This document shows positions 37,131 through 45,587 of a stretch of 64,000 nucleotides of DNA, in pieces. The notes beneath the pieces were generated by a model. That model did no database searches and had not been told where the DNA came from. It saw nothing but the letters and a program-made list of their open reading frames with translations. The stretch lies in contig JAKPDL010000227.1 in assembly GCA_029552825.1 (NCBI GenBank), positions 62,001 to 126,000 on the forward strand, in the 5' to 3' direction. Position numbers and translations under genes: made by a program. Origin of the DNA: Bacteroidota bacterium (lineage in GTDB: Bacteria; Bacteroidota; Bacteroidia; Bacteroidales; VadinHA17). How positions within the stretch are numbered: position 1 is the stretch's first letter; every line of letters begins with the position of its first letter.

Positions 37131-38336
37131 ATGATAATTCTTGTACTTAATTGCGGAAGTTCATCAATTAAATATCAGGTTTTTGATTTTTCAGACGGCG
37201 CAAATATGCTTGCAAAAGGCCTTCTGGAAAGAATAGGACTAAACGATTCAATCTTTACTCATAAACCCACCGGCAAAGAGCAATACAGAATTATTACTGA
37301 TATTCCTGACCATACTGTCGGAATAAATATGGTGATTGATGCACTCATTGATCATGAGCATGGAGTGATTAAAAGCATTGATGAAATTACGGCAGTAGGG
37401 CACCGGGTGGTACAGGGCGGCGAAAAATTTCAGAAAAGCGTTTTAATTGACGAAGATGTTAAAAAAGCTATAGAGATATATTGTGAACTTGCTCCGCTCC
37501 ATAACCCGGCAAATCTGAAAGGTATCCTTTCAGTTGAAAAACTGTTACCTCATGTTCCCCAGGTTGCAGTGTTTGATACATCCTTCCATCAAACCATGCC
37601 AGATTATGCTTATATGTATGCTATTCCGTATGAGTACTATGAGAAATACAGAATAAGAAAATACGGATATCATGGAACCAGTCACAAATTTGTTGCCAGT
37701 AAAGCGGCCGGTATTCTCGGCAGGGATATAAAAGAGCTTAAAATCATTACCTGCCACCTTGGAAATGGCTCATCAATGACCGCCATAAAAAATGGAATCT
37801 CAATAGATACCTCTATGGGTTTCACCCCGGTTGACGGACTGATTATGGGAACCCGTACAGGAGATATCGATGCAGGTGTGCTTCTGTATCTAGCTGATAA
37901 AGAACATCTTAATCTTGCAGGTATTAACAATCTGATAAATAAAAAAAGCGGCGTTCTCGGAATTTCAGGAATATCTTCAGATATGAGAGATCTGGAGCAA
38001 GCTGCAGCAGACGGTAATCCGAGGGCAATACTGGCTTTAAAAATGTTTGCCTACAGAGTTAAAAAGTATATTGGTGCTTATACTGCAGCAATGAATGGCC
38101 TTGACCTTTTAATATTTACCGGGGGAATCGGTGAGAATGATTTCAATATGAGAAAGTTGATCTGCACCGGTATGGAATATATTGGAATAGTGTTCAATGA
38201 AGAAGTAAATGAAGGAGCGAGAGGGAAAGACCTGATATTGTCAAAACCTGAATCTAGAGTTACCGTGATGTCAATAACTACAGATGAAGAATTTGTAATA
38301 GCATCTGATACAAAAAGTATTGTGGAAAAATTATAA
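37131..38336 (+). CDS. ackA: Acetate kinase
   Basis: Transfers phosphate from acetyl phosphate to ADP, making acetate and ATP. The 401 residues match. Motifs are LVLNCGSSSIKYQVF at the N-terminus, GHRVVQGG, the catalytic FDTSFHQTMP, YGYHGTSHKFV, HLGNGSSMTAI, MGTRTGDIDAGV and FTGGIGEN. It lies 45 bp after pta and 23 bp before the first ptb. Confidence 0.96.
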   Translation: MIILVLNCGSSSIKYQVFDFSDGANMLAKGLLERIGLNDSIFTHKPTGKEQYRIITDIPDHTVGINMVIDALIDHEHGVIKSIDEITAVGHRVVQGGEKFQKSVLIDEDVKKAIEIYCELAPLHNPANLKGILSVEKLLPHVPQVAVFDTSFHQTMPDYAYMYAIPYEYYEKYRIRKYGYHGTSHKFVASKAAGILGRDIKELKIITCHLGNGSSMTAIKNGISIDTSMGFTPVDGLIMGTRTGDIDAGVLLYLADKEHLNLAGINNLINKKSGVLGISGISSDMRDLEQAAADGNPRAILALKMFAYRVKKYIGAYTAAMNGLDLLIFTGGIGENDFNMRKLICTGMEYIGIVFNEEVNEGARGKDLILSKPESRVTVMSITTDEEFVIASDTKSIVEKL

Positions 38337-38359
38337 AAGCCTTTAGTAATTATCAGGTC

Positions 38360-39268
38360 ATGTTGAAAAAGCTTGATGAAATTAGAACAATAATTGCAAA
38401 TGAGCCTGTTAAAAAACTGGTTCTAGCAGCAGCCAATGATCATGATTCACTTAGTGCAGTTTTACGAGCTGCAAAAGATGGTATCGTAATTCCGATTCTT
38501 GTGGGCGACAAGGAAGCTATACAAAATATAGCATCATCATATGGATATGATATATCTGACCTGCGAATAGTTCATGAACCAGACACCGAAAAGGCAGTTG
38601 AGATAGCTGTAAAAATGGCAAGCAGCAAACAGGCTGAAATACTTATGAAAGGGAAGGTCGGTACATCAACGCTGCTGAAAAGTGTTCTCAACAGGGAATG
38701 GGGACTACGTACAGGCAAATTGCTCTCACATTTTGCCCTGTTTGAAGTTGAGACATACCACAAACTGATTGCAGTTACTGATGTGGCAATGAACATAGCA
38801 CCAAATCTTCAGGAAAAAATTGCAATTATTAATAATTCGATTGATTGTCTGCACAAACTGGGTATAGCACTTCCAAAAGTGGCAGTTCTGGGAGCTGTAG
38901 AAATGGTCAATGAAAATATGTCAGCCACACTCGATGCTGCTTTGCTTTCAAAAATGAACCAGAGAGACCAGATAAAAGGCTGTATTATTGATGGTCCACT
39001 GGCTTTTGATAATGCAGTAAGTGTTGAAAGTGCGCGTCATAAGGGTATTAAAAGCGAGGTGGCAGGCGATACTGACCTTTTGCTTATGCCTGATATTGAG
39101 GTGGGTAATGTCCTATATAAATCACTGGTATTCTTCGCCAAAGCAAAAGTGGCTTCAGTAATATTAGGAGCTGCTGTTCCTATTGTGCTTACATCACGTT
39201 CCGATTCGGAGCAGGCCAAATACGACAGTATAATGCTTGCAACCGCAGTTAGCAGGAAGCAACAATGA
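38360..39268 (+). CDS. ptb: Phosphate butyryltransferase-like protein (copy 1)
   Basis: A 302-residue member of the phosphate acetyl/butyryltransferase fold: ILMKGKVGTSTLLKSVLNRE, TDVAMNIAPNL, LGAVEMVNENM, IIDGPLAFDNAVS and DLLLMPDIEVGNVLYKSL. It is predicted to exchange CoA for phosphate on butyryl-CoA or a branched acyl-CoA. Its stop overlaps the next start by 4 bp (ATGA), so the two are translationally coupled. Exact acyl specificity cannot be read. Confidence 0.88.
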   Translation: MLKKLDEIRTIIANEPVKKLVLAAANDHDSLSAVLRAAKDGIVIPILVGDKEAIQNIASSYGYDISDLRIVHEPDTEKAVEIAVKMASSKQAEILMKGKVGTSTLLKSVLNREWGLRTGKLLSHFALFEVETYHKLIAVTDVAMNIAPNLQEKIAIINNSIDCLHKLGIALPKVAVLGAVEMVNENMSATLDAALLSKMNQRDQIKGCIIDGPLAFDNAVSVESARHKGIKSEVAGDTDLLLMPDIEVGNVLYKSLVFFAKAKVASVILGAAVPIVLTSRSDSEQAKYDSIMLATAVSRKQQ

Positions 39269-40179
39269 TAAGAACCCTCGATGAAATGGTCGATGTGGTG
39301 CTTTCTTTTCGAAAAAAGCACCGGCTGGCTGTTGCCTGGGCACATGATAATAATACCATTGAGGCTGTGGGCAATGCTGTAATTAACGGACTTGCAGAAG
39401 CAGTTCTGATAGGTCACAAAAAAGAAATTATTAGAACATGCGAAGCTGAATCAATCGACTATTCAATATTCACGATTACTGAATCGAAAAACGAAATCAC
39501 CGCTTCACAGGAAGCAGTTTCCATGGTTAAAACAGGAGAAGCCGACATAGTCATGAAAGGATTGGTCAGCACCGATAAATTCCTTAAGGCTGTGATGGAC
39601 AAGGAAAACGGAATTATGAAACCTGGTGCAGTTCTTTCATATGTATGTGCTGTACAGATTCCATCGTACCATAAGCTTCTTTTTATTACCGACCCTGCAG
39701 TAATCCCTTTTCCAGACCTTGACCAGAAAATTGCCATGGCAGAATATGCCATTGAAATGGCAAATACTTTCGGAATAGAAAAACCCAGGGTGGCATTGAT
39801 CGGAGCATCAGAGAAAATCTCCAGGCACTCGGAAAATTCTATTCATTACGCAGTTATGTGTAAAATGGCTGAACGAGGTCAGATTAAAAACTGCATTATG
39901 GATGGTCCGCTGGATATTTTTCTCGCCTGTGACAGGAAAAGCCAGGAGTTGAAACAGGTCGATACTCCTATTTGTGGTGATGCTGATATTCTTCTTTTTC
40001 CTTCGCTTGAATCATGCAATCCGTTTTATAAAGGACTTATGCTTTTTGCGGGAGGTGAACTGGCCGGTCTTATAAGAGGCACATCAAAACCTGTTGTATT
40101 AATGTCGAGAAGTGAAAAAAAGAAGTCAAAATACTATTGCATAGCCCTTGCTTGCCTGCTGGCTGAAAGAAATATATAA
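39265..40179 (+). CDS. Phosphate butyryltransferase-like protein (copy 2)
   Basis: A 304-residue paralogue of the previous gene. It keeps the fold motifs: IVMKGLVSTDKFLKAVMDKE, TDPAVIPFPDL, LIGASEKISRHSEN, IMDGPLDIFLACD and ILLFPSLESCNPFYKGL. The sequence differs strongly: TDPAVIPF replaces TDVAMNIA, and DGPLDIF replaces DGPLAFD. It could have a different acyl specificity or form a heteromer with copy 1; both are inference. It is followed 21 bp later by buk. Confidence 0.82.
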   Translation: MIRTLDEMVDVVLSFRKKHRLAVAWAHDNNTIEAVGNAVINGLAEAVLIGHKKEIIRTCEAESIDYSIFTITESKNEITASQEAVSMVKTGEADIVMKGLVSTDKFLKAVMDKENGIMKPGAVLSYVCAVQIPSYHKLLFITDPAVIPFPDLDQKIAMAEYAIEMANTFGIEKPRVALIGASEKISRHSENSIHYAVMCKMAERGQIKNCIMDGPLDIFLACDRKSQELKQVDTPICGDADILLFPSLESCNPFYKGLMLFAGGELAGLIRGTSKPVVLMSRSEKKKSKYYCIALACLLAERNI

Positions 40180-40200
40180 ACAAATAGTTCAGCTATTGGA

Positions 40201-41277
40201 ATGAAAAAATCACTGATTATTGCAATTAATCCAGGTTCTACTTCCACTAAAATTGCTGTATTTGAAGAGGAAAACCTTCTTTTTGAAAAAACAATCAGAC
40301 ATTCAACAGAAGAGCTTCAAAGATTTTCCAGGATAACTGACCAGTTCCATTTTCGTAAAGATCTGATTATGAAAGAACTGGAACATTATAAAATTGATTT
40401 TTCAAGGGTTGCAGCAGTTGTAGGAAGGGGTGGGCTTGTAAAGCCTATTGAATCGGGAGTTTACAGGGTGAATGAGAGAATGAAAAAAGATCTGAGAGAA
40501 AGTCCAATGGGAGAGCATGCCAGCAATCTAGGAGCTCTTATTGCGGATGATATAGCTTCTGAATTACAAGATGTTCCTGCATTTATTGTTGATCCTGTTG
40601 TTGTAGATGAAATGGAACCTGTTGCCAGACTATCAGGTCATCCTGAAATTAAACGGCTCTCGATTTTCCATGCGCTCAACCAGAAGGCGGTCGCAAGGCT
40701 TTATGCAGCCTCTAAGGGAAAAGAGTATGAAAAGTTGAATCTTATAGTTGTTCACATGGGAGGTGGAATAAGTGTAGGAGCTCACAAGCAGGGGCGGGTA
40801 GTTGATGTCAACAATGCACTAGGTGGAGATGGACCTTTCTCTCCGGAACGGTCAGGAGGACTCCCTTCAAAACAATTGGTCGATCTCTGCTTCAGTGGTA
40901 AATATACTTACGAGCAGATTAATTCAATGCTTATCGGCAAAGGCGGGATGGTAGCATACCTCGGAACAAATGATTTCAGAGATATCTCCAGGAGGGCTGA
41001 AGAAGGAGATGAGTCAGCATTGCTGGTTATAGATGCAGCTGCGTACCAGATTTCAAAGGAAATAGGCAGTATGGCTGCAGTTCTCGAAGGAAAAGTTGAT
41101 TCAATAATTCTTACGGGTGGAATGGCTTATCAAAAATCATTCAATGAAAAAATAATATCCCGTGTAAGCTTTATTGCTGAGGTTGTAATATATCCTGGTG
41201 AAGATGAAATGAAAGCACTTGCTTTTAATGTGATTCTTGCTTTACGGGGTCAACTACAGATAAAGGAATACTTCTGA
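40201..41277 (+). CDS. buk: Butyrate kinase
   Basis: Acetate-kinase-fold enzyme making butyrate, or a branched-chain acid such as isobutyrate or isovalerate, and ATP from the acyl phosphate. The 358 residues fit Buk rather than AckA. Motifs are IAINPGSTSTKIAVFEEE, VVGRGGLVKPI, HMGGGISVGAHKQGRVVDV, DGPFSPERSGGLP and ILTGGMAY. It closes the pta-ackA-ptb-ptb-buk run and converges with the SDR gene at 41310. Confidence 0.94.
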   Translation: MKKSLIIAINPGSTSTKIAVFEEENLLFEKTIRHSTEELQRFSRITDQFHFRKDLIMKELEHYKIDFSRVAAVVGRGGLVKPIESGVYRVNERMKKDLRESPMGEHASNLGALIADDIASELQDVPAFIVDPVVVDEMEPVARLSGHPEIKRLSIFHALNQKAVARLYAASKGKEYEKLNLIVVHMGGGISVGAHKQGRVVDVNNALGGDGPFSPERSGGLPSKQLVDLCFSGKYTYEQINSMLIGKGGMVAYLGTNDFRDISRRAEEGDESALLVIDAAAYQISKEIGSMAAVLEGKVDSIILTGGMAYQKSFNEKIISRVSFIAEVVIYPGEDEMKALAFNVILALRGQLQIKEYF

Positions 41278-44634: not shown

Positions 44635-44642
44635 CAAATATA
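44635..44642 (-). promoter_or_regulatory. Putative -7 element of the DAACS gene
   Basis: The minus strand reads TATATTTG, matching TAnnTTTG, 22 bp before the start at 44612. No matching -33 element is visible. Confidence 0.42.
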
Positions 44643-44735: not shown

Positions 44736-44815
44736 TTACAAAAGTAAAATAAACAATAATGAATTAAAACTAGTCGATTTTACATGTGTAAGTTATCATT
44801 TATTTACAAATGTAA
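44736..44815. promoter_or_regulatory. Distal cluster of TTACAnnTGTAA palindromes
   Basis: Exact copies at 44780-44791 and 44804-44815, with centres 24 bp apart, plus an imperfect copy TTACAAAAGTAA at 44736-44747 and a lone TTACA half-site at 44715-44719. Each exact copy is a 12-bp dyad with T/A flanks. The 44804 copy contains CAAATGTA, which on the minus strand is a TAnnTTTG -7 match, so it could cover a second promoter toward the DAACS gene. Confidence 0.68.
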
Positions 44816-45089
44816 TGTTAATTTAATAAGTAAATAATAATTTATTAAAAGTCTGTTTATCTGCATATTAAAATATATTATATAAATAATAAATCGAAAT
44901 AAAAAGTAATGATACCAATAAAAATTTTTAGAATATTAATGTCTTTATATATTATATTATTATAAATCAATGTTTTAAATACCTAAATTCAAGAAAAAGT
45001 TGAAGATAATTGATATTTATACTAGTTTGGAAATAAACTGTTTAATCAATTAACGAATTATGCATACCTGGCGAATAAATTAACTTATT

Positions 45090-45148
45090 TTACAGATGTA
45101 AATTAGATTATTTTACACATGTAATTCAAATTTTTATTACATTTGTAA
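45090..45148. promoter_or_regulatory. Proximal cluster of TTACAnnTGTAA palindromes at the HTH gene
   Basis: Three exact copies at 45090-45101, 45113-45124 and 45137-45148, with centres 23 and 24 bp apart, ending 4 bp before the ATG of the HTH gene. The third copy contains TACATTTG (45138-45145), a -7 match, so a protein bound there would cover the promoter. Same-face spacing suggests cooperative binding by a dimeric regulator; the adjacent HTH protein is the natural candidate. The 44816-45089 stretch between clusters is AT-rich with no other structure seen. Confidence 0.75.
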
Positions 45149-45152
45149 AAAC

Positions 45153-45587
45153 ATGAACATGAAAGAAAGGATAGAGGAATTTCTCAGGAGAGAAAACAAA
45201 ACCTACATTCAATTTGCTCAGGAAATAGGAGTTCAGCCATCTAGTATATCTCATATCCTATCAGGAAGAAATAAGCCAAGTCTTGACTTTGTACTGAAGA
45301 TGCTCTCAAGATATAAAAACATTTCTCCATCATGGCTGTTATTCGGCAAAGGTGAAATGTATACAGATAATGTATCGTCCCTGTTTGATAATGGAATTAT
45401 GAAAGATGATGATAAAGAATCTCTTATTGAAATCCAGCCATCTGAATCATCAGTACAAAACAAAATTTCCTTTGATGAAAAAGACAAAATAGAAATAAAA
45501 ACTGAAAGTAAAGTCCCGAAAAAACCGGCACGCAGGATAATTATTTTCTATGATGACAATACTTTTGACGAATATTTTCCGGATTGA
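45153..45587 (+). CDS. XRE-type helix-turn-helix regulator
   Basis: A 144-residue protein. The N-terminal HTH covers about 5-65: TYIQFAQEIGVQPSSISHI as helix-turn-helix, then LSGRNKPSLDFVLKML and SPSWLLFGKG. A Ser/Asp/Glu-rich linker follows, then a conserved C-terminal patch RRIIIFYDDNTFDEYFPD that I recall from other Bacteroidota HTH proteins of this size. The second half has no known ligand domain. It lies directly behind three TTACAnnTGTAA palindromes, one over its promoter, so negative autoregulation is likely. The Met at residue 3 (45159) is an alternative start. Confidence 0.85.
   Translation: MNMKERIEEFLRRENKTYIQFAQEIGVQPSSISHILSGRNKPSLDFVLKMLSRYKNISPSWLLFGKGEMYTDNVSSLFDNGIMKDDDKESLIEIQPSESSVQNKISFDEKDKIEIKTESKVPKKPARRIIIFYDDNTFDEYFPD

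Follow-up and report, generated by a model that had tools for sequence, protein, structure and literature searches.

A conserved two-cluster palindrome array is a probable autoregulatory operator region of an XRE-type regulator in Bacteroidia

Introduction

The window analysed here is a stretch of 64,000 nucleotides from a Bacteroidota genome. In the gap between a gene for a DAACS symporter and a divergent gene for a 144-residue XRE-type regulator it carries an array of palindromes, which raises the question of which gene the array serves and in what manner. The original prediction was a cooperative, autoregulated switch run by the XRE protein, possibly also controlling the DAACS carrier. On the basis of sequence comparisons we consider it highly probable that the adjacent XRE regulator controls its own gene through this array, by autorepression and with the distal cluster as an auxiliary operator, possibly via a loop. 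The sites, their association with the XRE gene in the order and in some other members of the class, and a fixed -7 box in the site nearest the gene were established directly; binding by the XRE protein, repression, cooperativity and looping are what we infer from them.

Results

Five exact copies of the palindrome TTACAnnTGTAA lie upstream of the XRE gene (45153..45587, plus strand), with starts at 44780, 44804, 45090, 45113 and 45137. A sixth copy with one mismatch (TTACAAAAGTAA) starts at 44736. A pattern search of the window returned all six copies at the positions described before. The palindrome unit comprises 12 bases and the copies form two clusters. The proximal cluster consists of O1 (TTACATTTGTAA, 45137..45148, plus strand), O2 (TTACACATGTAA, 45113..45124) and O3 (TTACAGATGTAA, 45090..45101), and the distal cluster of D1 (TTACAAATGTAA, 44804..44815), D2 (TTACATGTGTAA, 44780..44791) and the imperfect D3 (44736..44747). 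The coordinates agree with the near-constant step that had been described: 24 bp in the exact distal pair and 23 and 24 bp in the proximal trio. The imperfect copy is 44 bp away from its nearest neighbour. Recurrence beyond chance was likewise confirmed, since the window contains 14 matches with at most one mismatch compared to 3.99 expected, and none of 100 shuffles reached 14.

The XRE gene is single-copy in this genome. Its product matches Pfam HTH_3 (PF01381) over residues 9-62 (36.4 bits, cut-off 23); the Pfam search of the protein returned helix-turn-helix families only and no C-terminal peptidase or dimerisation domain. Scores stayed below the NCBIfam cut-offs for RstR (26.2 vs 80 bits), DicA (22.2 vs 101 bits) and HigA (20.6 vs 47.7 bits). 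The predicted structure has a high-confidence N-terminal helix-turn-helix, a disordered linker and a short C-terminal beta-hairpin. The domains matched by structure comparison were those of repressors such as 434 and P22, with no match below E = 0.001. The likely start codon is the ATG at 45159, from which the orthologues align. Three loci (L275, L282 and L283) encode related XRE proteins whose C-terminus differs and is coiled-coil-like, and exact copies adjoin the start there too. Because these loci also carry copies, the operator may predate the C-terminal hairpin.

Gene and array are conserved together. The XRE protein was found in 62 of 65 good genomes of the family and in 218 of 244 good genomes of the order, mostly once, and orthologues of ∼40-60% identity across family and order retain the array. 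Within 450 bp upstream, 98 exact sites were counted at 29 family loci (0.2 expected from dinucleotide shuffles) and 38 at 25 more distant loci of the order (0.25 expected). Of 79 named genome loci for which 100 bp or more of upstream sequence was available, 72 had at least two copies with at most one mismatch within 450 bp. In a class sample of 30 loci, which was picked by protein regardless of the motif, about half had exact copies upstream; among these are a few related XRE proteins that differ in their C-terminus. The presence of the motif upstream of orthologues, on which the original prediction was to be judged, thus extends across the order and, further out, to part of the class. In two genomes (G081 and G082) two XRE copies are located on different contigs, each with an array of its own.

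The association was also recovered by a search blind to the gene, in which two copies 6 to 36 bp apart were sought. Within the genus 42 of 60 genomes matched, every match being located at the XRE locus (control: 0), and no pair was found in those members of the genus that lacked a good XRE match (G055, G056, G058, G065 and G088). Of 296 genomes of the phylum 15 matched, and in 13 of these, this genome counted, the match lies upstream of an XRE orthologue; the other two (L195 and L196) had no XRE match.

The layout of the copies was compared at 45 family loci, where positions were counted from O1, the copy nearest the gene. Copies recur at -24 (O2; 33 loci), at -46/-47 (O3; 44 loci) and near -328, -362 and -396 (D1, D2 and D3, respectively). 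The centre of O1 is TT in all 45 loci and forms the -7 box TACATTTG, while the middle bases of O2, O3 and D1-D3 vary. In Bacteroidota the sigma-A -7 box is TAnnTTTG at -12 to -5 (PMC9723704, PMC7366714). O1 contains such a box at 45138-45145, as had been noticed for the last copy next to the helix-turn-helix gene, and from its placement transcription of the XRE gene is predicted to start near 45150. At the expected position of the -33 element no clear TTTG is present; O2 occupies this region. Because O1 always carries TACATTTG and the other copies vary centrally, we read the palindromes as the XRE gene's own operator region.

Neighbouring copies are preferentially 12-13, 22-24, 33-36 or 43-47 bp apart, in and outside the family; the counts were drawn from related sequences and are not independent events. 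The classes are roughly one DNA turn apart. The preferred steps of ∼12, 23-24, 34-35 and 46 bp suggest cooperative contacts between dimers. The predicted cooperative, autoregulated switch therefore stands in so far as the sites overlap the XRE promoter and are conserved with the gene, while cooperative switching is plausible from the steps.

In the whole genome (3.38 Mb, 237 contigs) 13 exact copies were counted compared to 4 for a reversed-pattern control. Five of these form the array and the remaining eight all lie inside long ORFs, which makes the array the sole intergenic cluster of exact copies found. A motif equally frequent in all intergenic DNA would have spoken against the original prediction; exact intergenic copies are confined to the array. 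Site-to-gene mapping covered the surroundings of the exact sites, and a search for a regulon via these sites found none in this genome. The sites might still represent a broad regulon of the XRE protein or of another factor, with the array merely its densest point, and one-mismatch copies are indeed somewhat commoner genome-wide than those of the control (281 vs 193). We regard this as unlikely, given the intragenic position of the other eight exact copies and the finding that, within the genus, site clusters occur at the XRE gene only. In two relatives, moreover, just two sites beyond the array were not located within an ORF; the first is close to a contig end and the second precedes nadB. 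The latter, an isolated exact copy 25 bp upstream of nadB in G049 (L215 / L222), was considered as a second target and rejected. It is missing from a 95%-identical relative and from 28 of 29 other relatives, the exception (L246) having a one-mismatch copy, and is probably due to chance. Another reading assigns the distal cluster to the divergent DAACS symporter, so that the XRE protein would control both genes from a shared region. The divergent orientation in the window is compatible with this, as is the minus-strand -7 match within the 44804 copy. This match is present as described, but it is not conserved in relatives, in which the D1 centre is not fixed. The symporter has its own -7 box nearer its start (TATATTTG, 44635-44642), many array loci lack a symporter, and in relatives such as L017, L025, L029, L030, L032 and L041 the symporter points in the XRE direction, yet the distal cluster is kept. 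Because the symporter is reversed or absent at array loci and its own -7 box is nearer, the suggested control of the carrier was not supported; the symporter is probably not a target, and joint control of both genes appears improbable.

A link to the downstream genes was rejected as well, since these vary among pyrK-pyrD, a PyrD-like gene, presumably a dus homologue, and an ndk-like gene in opposite direction. A role tied to chromosome position was also discarded: the coordinates in single-contig genomes share no common place, a weak comparison as origins were not located. Elsewhere in the window, consecutive ORFs at 37131-41277 resemble genes for an acetate kinase, two phosphate acyltransferases and a butyrate kinase.

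In the family, and in those class loci that were selected by the motif, the distal cluster is strong. Elsewhere in the order it is weaker, and outside the family much weaker overall, with at least two distal sites at 4 of 25 order loci and at 10 of 46 far named loci. The two-cluster layout recurs in class members beyond the order, where the spacer is near 190-200 bp. In the family the distal step is usually 34-35 bp, compared to 24 bp in the window, and the spacer of the window (44804 to 45090, 286 bp) is ∼4-5 bp longer than the family norm of ∼281-283 bp. Because both values are off the family norm, strict phasing of a loop is argued against. For a loop between the clusters as such, we see the chances as evenly balanced.

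The sequence between the clusters (44816..45089) is AT-rich and contains conserved short boxes. The IHF consensus is WATCARNNNNTTR, and a box resembling it, AATCAATGTTTTA, is located at 44965..44977 (plus strand). IHF-like boxes occur 13 times in the family spacers compared to 1.6 expected, mostly at one place, and HU/IHF-type genes are present in the genome. The family alignment further revealed the boxes TTTAGAA and TCTAAACT, inverted and ∼45 bp apart, as well as TATACCA. Conserved boxes and a near-constant spacer length in the family would also be in keeping with a separate spacer transcript, e.g. a small RNA, which the distal cluster drives or represses. Against this, the spacer matched no Rfam family, neither a consensus structure nor covariation was found, and the only plus-strand TAnnTTTG box in 44816-45152 is that of O1. 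A small RNA was rejected on the lack of an Rfam match and of a consensus fold, and a separate spacer transcript seems very unlikely.

Discussion

In the proposed mechanism, dimers of the XRE protein would bind each TTACAnnTGTAA copy. Dimers at O1, over the -7 box, and at O2, over the predicted -33 region, would block sigma-A RNA polymerase, and the XRE protein would thereby limit its own synthesis, with O3 and the distal cluster helping. Neighbouring dimers at the preferred steps would make cooperative contacts. The distal cluster would serve as an auxiliary operator of the same promoter, perhaps via a loop of ∼280 bp, assisted by an IHF/HU-type bend. The XRE protein could conversely activate its own promoter, for which the upstream O3 and the distal cluster might be suited. 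However, O1 on the -7 box and O2 on the predicted -33 region occupy what would normally be polymerase-blocking positions, and we consider autoactivation to be quite unlikely compared to autorepression.

The arrangement resembles phage and plasmid systems. Lambda CI acts on three promoter operators and a second distant cluster (OR/OL) and combines a helix-turn-helix with a linker and a C-terminal element. The locus described here likewise has three operators over the promoter region at steps of 23-24 bp, a second distant cluster and a protein with helix-turn-helix, linker and C-terminal element. In contrast to lambda CI, the C-terminal peptidase/dimerisation domain has no counterpart here, its place being taken by the short predicted beta-hairpin; there is one promoter, and no prophage context was seen. 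By structure comparison the DNA-binding domains of the 434 and P22 c2 repressors share the helix-turn-helix fold, although identity is ∼23-26% over the aligned part, the operator sequence differs and no phage genes were seen nearby. RcoLS20 of the Bacillus plasmid pLS20 is an XRE-type regulator with loop-mediated repression and a bent AT-rich spacer (PMC4207663). As for RcoLS20 (PMC4207663), the repeated motif forms two clusters, one over the promoter and the other distant; in the family, one of the two putative operator clusters covers the regulator's -7 box. RcoLS20, whose looping has been demonstrated, uses the 8-bp motif CAGTGAAA with a spacer of 75 bp at overlapping divergent promoters of a plasmid conjugation operon, whereas here a palindrome with a spacer of ∼280 bp, for which looping is proposed from sequence, precedes a chromosomal gene conserved across the order.

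A literature search for the motif and for an autoregulated Bacteroidota XRE regulator, with most subscription journals outside its coverage, returned nothing relevant. Clustered operators in front of an autoregulated XRE gene are known as such; the TTACAnnTGTAA operator and its distribution seem not to have been described in the literature searched. A more far-reaching and distinctly tentative interpretation, which we think possible but less likely than not to hold in full, is that of a chromosomally fixed XRE regulator throughout Bacteroidia with its own promoter as main or sole target and a two-cluster, looped operator with an IHF/HU-type bend, i.e. a domesticated phage-repressor-like switch.

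The findings provide a concrete operator sequence for a regulator that about nine in ten good sampled genomes of the order encode and that also occurs in some of the remaining class, which makes its binding, regulon and signal directly testable. They also provide an example, located on the chromosome and retained despite long divergence, of a putative autoregulatory region with multiple sites in two clusters that resembles the switches of phages and plasmids.
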